Shown one piece after another: positions 1,371-5,007 of a stretch of 5,284 nt of DNA. Position numbers and translations under genes: made by a program. The stretch covers positions 1 through 5,284 of the forward strand of contig JAUUZS010000347.1 of assembly GCA_030589835.1 (NCBI GenBank), given 5' to 3'. The notes under the pieces are model-generated. The model saw nothing but the letters and a program-made list of their open reading frames with translations, made no database searches and had not been told where the DNA came from. Source of the DNA: Cyclobacteriaceae bacterium. GTDB taxonomy: Bacteria; Bacteroidota; Bacteroidia; Cytophagales; Cyclobacteriaceae. Each line of letters begins with the position of its first letter. Position 1 is the first letter of the stretch.

Positions 1371-3707
1371 ATGAAAAGACGGAATTTCGTGAAAAATATA
1401 GGTATGCTTACCGCTTCTTTAAGTATTCCAATGGGGTTTAAATTTAATCCTAACAAGCTAAAGCAATCCAATTTTAATCTAAAAAATAGTTATTCCCTCA
1501 AGGAGTTTGTTGACGAGCATGAAGAATACCCTTCTTTAGTGACGGATCATCAAGGCCATTCATGGCTGTTTTCATTACGAAGATTACCTTATCCGGAAAA
1601 TAAAGAACATATATCTGCATTCAGCTTCGAAGGAAATACCTGGGTTGAAAAAAGTCCGGTTACTAAGCTGGCAGGTCAATATGAATATCCTACAGCAGCA
1701 TGCGCCCCAGACGGATTTCCGGTGATTGCCTGGACGAGTATTGATGATGCAAATTGGAACATAGAAGTATCTACAGCTACTAAAAATGGATTTAATGATC
1801 CGGTATCTTTCAAGCCGAGTTCAGGAAAATATATAAAACCTGTATTGCATACTTCCACAAAGAAGCGTATTTGGCTTGCCTGGGAAAAATATAATAAGGG
1901 GCATTTTTCAATTTGCATAACAAAAAGTGAAGGAGGTCGATGGAGTAAGATTATTGAAATCAGTGGGGATAAAAACAGCCTGTTTAACCCGGCCATGACT
2001 GAGGATAAAGATGGCGACTTATTTATTGCCTATGGAATTACCGATGGCGTTCATCAGAATATTGAAATGAAAAAAATCCATGGAAAATCCATGAAAATCA
2101 TAGATCACATTCCGGTAGCCATTGGCGGTGGATTAACTGACCGGGTCAATATGAATACCAATCCAGCCCTGGCCATGGATAAATCCGGGAAATTATGGAT
2201 TAGTTGGGAAAACAACAGAAAATCACATAGGCTGGAAGATGGCGACAATTTTACAGGCGATAGAATCTGCGCTATGGTATGTTATGAAGATGGTGTATTG
2301 AAAGAACATAAAAATATAGGCAAATGGTTATTCAATGGAAAAAACGATCATTTACCTACCTTTATTAAAGACAGCGAAAATAATTTATCTGTTGTTACGC
2401 ACTGTGGTGGCGACTTCACGGGTAATCCATTTTGGAAATATCGAATTTCCAGACTGGATTTGAAAAAAGGCTGGTCTCCACCGGAAACTATCCTGGAAAC
2501 AAAACAAAAGGGGCAAACCAATCATCCTGCTTTGATTTTTAACGATGCTGGAATGTGGCTGGCCAACAGGCCGGAAAAATGGTTTAAGGATGAAAAAGAG
2601 TCTGCAAATCGTCCAAATGAGCATTTTAGAGCCCGATTAAGCAAACTGGAATTGCATCAATTCGAATATAAAGAAACTGAGCTTTCAAAAGAAAGACCTA
2701 ATCTATCTTTAGTTCCTACTATCGTTGAAGAATCCCATCCCAATAAAAATTATACGCCCATACTAAGTGGCCGTCCACGGATAAAACGAAAAACCATGGA
2801 GCACGATGGTGAAACCTTTACACTACTCGTAGGAAATCTTCATGAACATACAGAAATATCAAGCTGCTGGCCAGCAGGATGTGATGGAACAATTCATGAT
2901 GATTATAGGTTTGGAATGTATTCCGAAGGTTATGATTTCATGGGTATTACAGATCATGGCTACTCACTAAATGAAGTCTATTGGCGTAAAAGCCTCCGCA
3001 TGATTGATTTCTATACCGACAATGAAAATTTTGTAGCCATTCCATCTCTTGAGTGGACCCTCTCTAATGGTAGAGGAAACGTAAATATCAAACCAGGAGT
3101 AGGTCATAAAAATATTTTTTTCTCTTCAAATGATGAGGCTTTAAAATTTATCAGAAACAAAAACGAAATTTATTCTGTGAATAATAAAGAAACCAAGGAT
3201 GCAATGGCCTTATGGGATTTTCTTCACAAAAATGAAATTGATTGTGTCACCATTCCTCACCATCCTGCAGATGAAGTACATCCAACAGATTGGGAAGTCC
3301 ATGATTCAACATATCAGTCGATTGTGGAAATATTTCAATGCAGGGGAAATGCCGAATTTCCAGGTTGTCCACGCGAAATAAATGTATCCAGACACGCGCC
3401 TATTGATAACCCAAAGTCTTATATCGATTATGCATTGGCAGAAAAAAAGCACAAAATGGGTTTTATTGCAAGTGGAGATCATAATGGGATTGGTGTTGGG
3501 TTAGCAGCCCTCTGGGTGAAAGAAATCAGCCAGGAGGGAATTGTGGATGCTTTAAAACATCGACGTTGCTTTGCTACAACCGGCGATAAGATATTTGTGC
3601 ACATGACAATTAATGGAGCCTGGGCTGATAAAGAGGCAAACATTAATGAGAAAGCTCCGACAATTAATTATGAAATTGAATCCGTGGATAGCATAAAATC
3701 TATTTAA
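1371..3707 (+). CDS. Tat-exported beta-propeller/PHP-domain (DUF3604-type) protein, C-terminus cut by an in-frame stop, 778 aa
   Basis: The N-terminus MKRRNFVKNIGMLTASLSIP is a Tat-type leader (RRNFVK, then a hydrophobic stretch), indicating export. Residues 50-440 carry seven repeats of a D/K-x-x-G-x-x-W-hydrophobic-A-W strand, at about 59-68, 113-122, 164-172, 212-221, 270-279, 333-343 and 391-398. This is the pattern of a sialidase/BNR-like beta-propeller. Residues 484 to the end are a PHP-type metal-hydrolase domain of the DUF3604 family. The visible metal-site motifs are NLHEHTE (H491, H493), ITDHG (D528, H529), SLEW (E561), GHKN (H579), PHHPAD (H630, H631) and SGDHNG (D703, H704). RRCFATTGDKI precedes the last strands. 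PHP proteins are phosphoesterases or related hydrolases; the substrate here is unknown. The start is fixed by an in-frame TAA at 1359-1361. The TAA at 3705-3707 looks premature, because homologous-looking sequence continues in the same frame to 3890. All metal ligands lie before it, so a shortened product could keep the active site but may not fold well. Confidence 0.88.
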   Translation: MKRRNFVKNIGMLTASLSIPMGFKFNPNKLKQSNFNLKNSYSLKEFVDEHEEYPSLVTDHQGHSWLFSLRRLPYPENKEHISAFSFEGNTWVEKSPVTKLAGQYEYPTAACAPDGFPVIAWTSIDDANWNIEVSTATKNGFNDPVSFKPSSGKYIKPVLHTSTKKRIWLAWEKYNKGHFSICITKSEGGRWSKIIEISGDKNSLFNPAMTEDKDGDLFIAYGITDGVHQNIEMKKIHGKSMKIIDHIPVAIGGGLTDRVNMNTNPALAMDKSGKLWISWENNRKSHRLEDGDNFTGDRICAMVCYEDGVLKEHKNIGKWLFNGKNDHLPTFIKDSENNLSVVTHCGGDFTGNPFWKYRISRLDLKKGWSPPETILETKQKGQTNHPALIFNDAGMWLANRPEKWFKDEKESANRPNEHFRARLSKLELHQFEYKETELSKERPNLSLVPTIVEESHPNKNYTPILSGRPRIKRKTMEHDGETFTLLVGNLHEHTEISSCWPAGCDGTIHDDYRFGMYSEGYDFMGITDHGYSLNEVYWRKSLRMIDFYTDNENFVAIPSLEWTLSNGRGNVNIKPGVGHKNIFFSSNDEALKFIRNKNEIYSVNNKETKDAMALWDFLHKNEIDCVTIPHHPADEVHPTDWEVHDSTYQSIVEIFQCRGNAEFPGCPREINVSRHAPIDNPKSYIDYALAEKKHKMGFIASGDHNGIGVGLAALWVKEISQEGIVDALKHRRCFATTGDKIFVHMTINGAWADKEANINEKAPTINYEIESVDSIKSI

Positions 3708-3890
3708 ATACTGCTAAATAGTAAGGCCATCAAGAGAATCTATCCGGGAACTACCTTGATTCAACAAGGTAGTTTTATTGATAATGACTACAATTCCGAG
3801 GAGGAGGTATTATATTATTATGTTCGGGTAATTCAGGAAAATGGACATATAGCTTGGTCGAGCCCAGTCTGGGTAAATACACGTACCTGA
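3708..3890 (+). pseudogene. Detached C-terminal 60 codons of the propeller-PHP gene
   Basis: The stretch is in the same frame as the gene ending at 3705-3707, with no further stop until TGA at 3888-3890 and no ATG of its own. It starts ILLNSKAIKRIYPGTTLIQQ and ends YYYVRVIQENGHIAWSSP followed by VWVNTRT. DUF3604 proteins normally end with a strand pattern of the type YYVRV-Q-x-DG-x-AWSSPIWV, so this is the missing tail of the domain, not chance sequence. Replacing the TAA by a Glu codon gives SIKSI-E-ILLNSK, a natural strand, so one G-to-T change (GAA to TAA) is enough to explain the break. The restored gene would have 839 codons. The tail ends 13 bases before the stop of the convergent gene, leaving no normal intergenic space. 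The alternatives are a sequencing error or stop-codon readthrough. Confidence 0.82.
3749..3780 (+). terminator. Terminator-like hairpin within the detached tail
   Basis: AACTACCTTG (3749-3758) and CAAGGTAGTT (3765-3774) form a perfect 10-bp stem with a 6-base loop (ATTCAA). On the + strand it is followed by TTTATTG, giving a T-rich run with the last stem base. It lies 42 bases after the TAA at 3705-3707, a typical distance for an intrinsic terminator. No T-tract follows on the - strand, so it would act on the + strand only. The same bases encode GTTLIQQGSF of the detached protein tail, so the hairpin may be a coincidence of coding sequence. The stem is of moderate GC content, so termination strength is uncertain. 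Confidence 0.45.
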
Positions 3891-3903
3891 TCATTGATTT
3901 GGT

Positions 3904-5007
3904 TTATTGTTTCTCTGGTTTTAAAAATTCACAATTCTGACGTAAAAAATCAATGCTCTTTTGCAGCTCCTTTTTCTGATGTTCCTGTGCAAACAATTTT
4001 GCATCAACGCCCTCAGGAGGTGATTGAATTTCTATGGGGTTTCCGGATCGGATCATATTGTAGAAATCAAGAAGTCCGGACGCTTTAAGATCCGGATAAC
4101 CTAACCAGAAATCCTGCTGAAGAAAGGGTATTTCATTCTGTCTATTAGAAACAGTTTCAATGTGTAATGGAACACCGGGACATAGCTCCGACATCCGTTT
4201 GGTGTAATGTTGGAAATCCATCGAGCCCTCACCCAGGGCTGTCCATTGGAAAGTCGCACCGTTTTCTGATTCCCAGATTCTATAATCCCGCACACTGGTA
4301 CATAGCACATGCTTGCCCAGCTTTTCTATCTGATGCATCGGATTTTCCATAGCCCAGACAGAATTTCCCGGATCCAGCATTACACCGCACACATCGGTTC
4401 CGACAGTTTCCACAATACTCAATACCTCTTCAGATCGCATATCCCCGGCATGATTCTCGACAGCAAATTTGATCCCGGCATCTTGGATTTGAGATCGCAT
4501 AGTACGAAGTTCATCGATTAGTTCTTCCATCCGGGCTACGATCCCACCATCTGTATATCGATCAGCAATATTTCCTATTTTACAATTTATTGAAGTTGCA
4601 TTAAATATTTTAGCAACACGAAGTCCGGACAGGATTAATTCTTTTGGAGTACCAAATTTTGCGGTATAGGAATGGGAATTAACACTCAGGCTTCCAACGC
4701 CAAAATACAGGCTCATATTATTGGCTTCCAAAAGTTTGCGAAGTGCCTTCAGGTATGCCTCTTCAAGATTATCAAAATAACTCAAGGCATTGAATAAGAT
4801 AGAATCCACGTTCAGATCAATAGCATATTCCATTAATTGTTGCGCCTTCCACCTCATCATACTGATAGCATGTGCATCCATACCAAGAGGCACTTTTGTA
4901 GCTAAAGGTTGTAAATTAATAAGTTGGCCTTTAGCCAGAACACCTGACATTAGCGGAGCTCCAAGCATCCCCAAAGCTGCCTTAGTTGCAAATTTCCTTC
5001 TATTCAT
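3904..5007 (-). CDS. Tat-exported sugar phosphate isomerase/epimerase-like TIM-barrel protein, 367 aa
   Basis: The start MNRRKFATKAALGMLGAPLM is a Tat-type leader (RRKF, then a hydrophobic segment), with a plausible signal peptidase site after VLA (residue 25), so the mature enzyme should be periplasmic. The rest is a xylose-isomerase-like TIM barrel (AP endonuclease 2 superfamily, COG1082 type) of usual length. Late-strand motifs are FAVENHAGDM (E184, H186), MLDPGNSVW (D212), TSVRDYRI (237-244), ALGEGSMDF (257-265) and LHIETVS (E284). E184, D212 and E284 match three of the four usual divalent-metal ligands. The fourth, normally His in the strand before the last, appears to be Ser238 here. 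Members of the family isomerise or epimerise sugars or dehydrate inositols; the substrate cannot be read from sequence. A charged C-terminal helix covers 335-360. The gene follows another - strand gene by 12 bases, consistent with one operon, and has no visible Shine-Dalgarno. It converges on the propeller-PHP gene. Confidence 0.88.
   Translation of the reverse strand: MNRRKFATKAALGMLGAPLMSGVLAKGQLINLQPLATKVPLGMDAHAISMMRWKAQQLMEYAIDLNVDSILFNALSYFDNLEEAYLKALRKLLEANNMSLYFGVGSLSVNSHSYTAKFGTPKELILSGLRVAKIFNATSINCKIGNIADRYTDGGIVARMEELIDELRTMRSQIQDAGIKFAVENHAGDMRSEEVLSIVETVGTDVCGVMLDPGNSVWAMENPMHQIEKLGKHVLCTSVRDYRIWESENGATFQWTALGEGSMDFQHYTKRMSELCPGVPLHIETVSNRQNEIPFLQQDFWLGYPDLKASGLLDFYNMIRSGNPIEIQSPPEGVDAKLFAQEHQKKELQKSIDFLRQNCEFLKPEKQ

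Follow-up and report, generated by a model that had tools for sequence, protein, structure and literature searches.

Does the TAA that closes a propeller-PHP gene in a contig of a Cyclobacteriaceae bacterium reflect a nonsense mutation, an error in the sequence or a stop codon that ribosomes sometimes read through? The sequence-only reading of the window (by which we mean the whole stretch of 5284 nucleotides analysed here) had placed these three possibilities side by side. We found support for its nonsense change and for the tail behind the stop as a real part of the family; readthrough, with none of the listed homologues ending there, came out as the weakest of the three. The explanation that we prefer, giving it a probability of about two in three, is that the TAA is a recent, private nonsense mutation in an otherwise intact gene of 839 codons. 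Features of the locus are collected in Table 1.

Table 1. Features of the window relevant to the interrupted gene
Feature	Coordinates	Strand	Remarks
Truncated propeller-PHP gene (DUF3604, CehA/McbA-like)	1371..3707	+	778 aa, ends at premature TAA
PHP metallohydrolase core and start of Ig-like domain, both retained in the truncated product	2778..3704	+	
Premature in-frame TAA	3705..3707	+	Codon 779; Glu or Asp in homologues
Cut-off tail, larger part of the C-terminal Ig-like beta-sandwich	3708..3890	+	Homology; fold model
Convergent TIM-barrel gene (AP_endonuc_2)	3904..5007	-	367 aa, intact

The open frame beyond the stop codon

Analysis of open reading frames gave exactly the coordinates claimed earlier for the 778-codon gene, its stop and the open stretch beyond: behind the TAA come 60 sense codons in the same frame (3708-3887), closed by a TGA at 3888-3890, which makes a full-length frame of 839 codons. 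The product thus loses its last 61 residues. No frameshift has to be assumed, as had been stated, since the tail continues in the gene's own frame. An open run of 60 codons would occur by chance with a probability of ∼0.01, as estimated from shuffled bases of the window. The TGA is separated by 13 bases from the stop codon of the convergent TIM-barrel gene, a spacing to be expected if position 3890 was the original gene end.

Glutamate codons in the truncated gene are mostly GAA (45 cases, with 12 cases of GAG), so that a single base step from GAA to TAA is enough to produce the stop. The other three open reading frames taken as genes with a stop codon in the window all end in TAA; thus TAA serves as a stop here, which speaks against its reassignment to an amino acid.

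It had also been predicted that automatic annotation would report an ordinary gene, and indeed the protein collection holds an entry of 778 aa (P0001). If the base is real, annotation has presented a fresh loss-of-function allele as an ordinary gene that is a little short, a minor instance of a familiar weakness of annotation; should the base be an error, the matter is one of quality control only. Under either reading, knowledge of DUF3604 proteins and of stop codons stays unchanged. The case is ordinary as biology, with nothing pointing to a new decoding mechanism.

The tail as the C-terminus of the family

A protein search with the 778-residue query gave 129 matches, 120 of them listed; after removal of the window's own entry we used 119 homologues. 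At the stop column 85 of these listed homologues have Glu, 30 have Asp and four have no residue, in agreement with the earlier claim that a sense codon was lost at this position. Of the 115 listed homologues that bear the tail, 108 have their last residue at query positions 835-839; the other seven extend 1-17 residues further. The remaining four end early, P0116 at 710, P0112 at 719, P0083 at 762 and P0119 at 773; P0112 and P0119 are labelled partial by the source, while the early ends of P0116 and P0083 could be cuts at contig ends (the contig of P0083 has 91 738 bases).

The tail itself is conserved. Of its 60 residues, 41 are identical in P0002, the nearest homologue; shuffling the tail 1000 times left a mean identity of 6.6% and never more than 18%. 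Its YYY and WSSP motifs are identical in 112 and 111, respectively, of the 115 tail-bearing listed homologues. As 115 of the 119 listed homologues pass the stop column and the tail residues are conserved, the 60 codons after the TAA are, by comparison of sequences, the family's true C-terminus, and the expectation that they encode the family ending is borne out by the homologous proteins.

Pfam does not contribute to this conclusion. The 60-residue tail alone had no Pfam or NCBIfam match at E-values up to 1, and the alignment to PF12228 proposed earlier lends it no support. The PF12228 score is 43.0 bits for the truncated protein and 41.5 bits for the read-through protein, with the best stretch at residues 708-758; since reading through does not raise the score and the tail has no match of its own, the profile, which does not cover the tail, speaks neither for nor against it. 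Two findings had been named as ones that would speak against the sequence-only reading. One, close homologues ending at the same position, is absent: no protein among the 119 listed homologues stops within query positions 775-781. The other, a tail unlike the family ending, holds true of the Pfam profile only and is false for the homologous proteins.

Age of the stop codon

The window and P0002 are identical at 605 of 778 positions of the body (the part before the stop) and, as given above, at 41 positions of the tail; for P0002 and P0003, both without the stop, the respective counts are 612/777 and 34/60. We also counted changes along single lineages, at conserved sites where the other two of the three sequences (window, P0002 and P0003) agree with one another and with at least 6 of the homologues P0004-P0013. 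Such changes in the window lineage number 3 at 29 tail sites and 21 at 498 body sites (Fisher P = 0.14), and the tails of P0002 and P0003 have changed at 5/31 and 0/26 sites. With drift of the tail no greater than that of the nearest relatives, the tail has probably not been free of selection for long, and we infer from these alignments that the stop is probably young on the scale of ∼22% protein divergence from the nearest relatives.

No more than 22 bases from the stop, two nearly invariant residues have been replaced. Residue 782 is Leu in the window and Arg in 109 of the 115 tail-bearing listed homologues; residue 786 is Ala in the window and Val in 111 of them. At columns conserved at ≥90% we counted 2 departures in 15 tail columns and 3 in 193 body columns (Fisher P = 0.043, a post hoc comparison); at a threshold of 95% the difference between tail and body gave P = 0.16, with 1 of 139 body columns departing, at residue 663. 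The departures near the stop hint at either a slightly older relaxation of constraint or a local cluster of errors. The idea that two G-to-T changes, at position 3705 and in codon 782, form a damage signature was dropped, because Arg 782 is encoded by AGA or AGG in three relatives and a change to CTA needs at least two substitutions.

Domain structure and the effect of truncation

The truncated protein matches PF12228 (DUF3604) above the gathering score (43 bits versus 20.4), and its match to NF038032 (CehA/McbA) is partial and below the cut-off (32.6 bits versus 80). It resembles these families in the PF12228 score and in a PHP fold like that of PDB 3e38; it differs from them in the NF038032 score, in the N-terminal beta-propeller that precedes the PHP domain (seen in a homologue model) and in the cut after 778 of 839 residues. 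A sequence search among solved structures gave no match at E-values up to 1. The PHP fold of 3e38, a two-domain PHP-like predicted phosphoesterase (BVU_3505), is alike, although only 18% of the aligned positions are identical; 3e38 is a chain of 342 residues as compared with 839 here, propeller included. Literature searches on CehA with a PHP domain and hydrolase gave no match, and DUF3604 was met in work on Chlamydia mutagenesis. The N-terminal signal of the 778-aa protein is presumably Tat-like; the gene product is probably a secreted, sugar-related enzyme.

The PHP metallohydrolase core occupies approximately residues 470-737, upstream of the stop, and the Ig-like domain begins at about residue 738. 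The stop is placed by a partial fold model inside the strand formed by model residues 306-313, i.e. within a strand of the C-terminal Ig-like domain, and five further strands are predicted to be removed, so that the cut would leave a partial sandwich.

On the preferred reading, one recent base substitution, most simply GAA to TAA, would have hit the conserved Glu codon 779. The cell would then make a protein of 778 residues in which the propeller and PHP metallohydrolase core are still present but most of the Ig-like domain is gone; such a protein would probably be misfolded or impaired. The stop, the conserved tail, the Glu or Asp of the homologues and the limited change of the tail are observations; that the base is real in the organism, recent and harmful to the protein is our inference.

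Further copies and relatives in genomes

With the last 131 residues as query, X being placed at the stop, we found 28 short C-terminal fragments, the best of them 69% identical; the stop column has Glu in 27 and Asp in one. By its design this search is biased to intact copies, as a fragment bearing the stop would be cut and might score too low, so that the finding of Glu or Asp in all 28 fragments leans toward intact copies. No second contig with the same TAA allele was seen among the 119 listed homologues and the 28 fragments. The protein cluster of the window gene has two member sequences from one contig, and the analysis covered one of them.

A scan of genome contigs revealed two relative loci, one 62% and the other 54% identical, and one more near-full-length locus (L005, 51% identity) came from searches of 293 and of 99 genomes around them. 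None of these three genome relatives has an internal stop; a scan of viral contigs revealed no relative. The set used for comparison of strains contained no relatives above 78% identity, and at 51-62% identity synonymous sites are likely to be saturated; in place of substitution rates in 3708-3887, the lineages were compared by their protein changes.

A separate observation concerns an isolated C-terminal relic in another genome (L011; genome G300, contig C518:82-432), with 39% identity to residues 721-836 of P0002. It carries two in-frame TGA codons, one of them replacing the Trp of WSSP, and looks like a decayed fragment of the same family.

Alternative explanations of the stop codon

The available sequence gives no means of telling a nonsense mutation from a base error, so the possibility that the TAA arose in sequencing or in the consensus of a short contig, while the organism carries the intact gene, has to be weighed with some care; we regard it as unlikely, though by no means negligible. 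The protein collection gives the window as the whole 5284-base contig, as would be the case for a short contig from a metagenome; the tail shows the conservation of an intact gene, and the departures cluster near the stop. The same departures, Leu 782 and Ala 786, count against a simple recent mutation, as does the want of a second copy of the allele among the listed homologues and the fragments, the best C-terminal fragment from elsewhere being 69% identical only. Against an error, the TIM-barrel neighbour is intact and the rest of the truncated gene's frame is open, which indicates that the contig is not generally poor, and substitution errors are rare in assembled consensus sequences. Belinky et al. 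(PMC7918605) expect a substantial fraction of artefacts among in-frame stops found by searching databases. Literature searches on nonsense mutations in metagenome-assembled genomes gave no match.

Another explanation takes the stop as real and regularly read through, with a low level of the full-length form acting as a regulatory device. We consider it very improbable. The frame is open and conserved past the stop, as this explanation would have it; however, conservation inherited from before a young mutation cannot be told from conservation maintained by readthrough, and the conserved tail therefore does not decide. No protein with its end at this point was found among the 119 listed homologues, the three genome relatives at 51-62% identity lack an internal stop, the other three genes with a stop in the window end in TAA, and UAA is generally the tightest stop codon. 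Readthrough rates of 0.01% for UAG and 0.08% for UGA are published for P. putida (PMC9481147); for E. coli the same passages give ∼12% for UGA, with UAA not among the constructs there. According to Belinky et al. (2021; PMC7918605), in-frame stops are common in the genomes of bacteria but do not last long; they report stops with dN/dS below 1 and suggest that these lower expression. The present case resembles theirs in having one stop in a gene conserved on both sides of it; it differs in that their focus was on stops shared by two or more species, a requirement that a stop known from one contig would fail. Less credible still is a stop-codon switch on a secreted PHP enzyme, in which a TAA that is either maintained in the population and read through or lost and regained time after time would allow a small, adjustable share of full-length product. 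Equally hard to credit is the view that the protein of 778 residues is functional in its shortened form, the loss of most of the Ig-like domain having been tolerated or selected. The propeller and the PHP core are uninterrupted, and residue 663 is the sole departure among the 139 most conserved body columns; but the conservation of the body shows function before the mutation only, nearly all listed relatives (115/119) keep the tail, and the modelled cut would fall inside a strand and leave an incomplete sandwich. Neither readthrough nor a working short form has positive support beyond what a mutation or an error explains equally.

Gene neighbourhood

The protein encoded by the TIM-barrel gene is of the same length as its nearest relatives. 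Several longest-contig sizes (38 738, 13 261, 12 169, 4185 and 151 237) recur among the homologues of both this gene and the DUF3604 gene, which suggests that the two genes are adjacent in relatives as well. We found no Rfam match at gathering scores and no tRNA in the window, no terminator-like site within positions 3600-4000 and no PADLOC match for three window proteins; promoter-like sites numbered three, with 1.5 expected by chance. An open reading frame at 63-1124 on the forward strand encodes an apparently coiled-coil protein of 353 aa with no Pfam match; it matches phrog_29668, of unknown function, with an E-value of 1.1e-25.

Sulfatase-like genes, as read from translations, adjoin relatives of the DUF3604 gene at two loci (L001, 4534-5865 on the reverse strand; L002, 830-2293 on the forward strand). 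These neighbours point, as a lead only, to a part played in degrading sulfated sugars, with sulfated polysaccharides as a possible setting.
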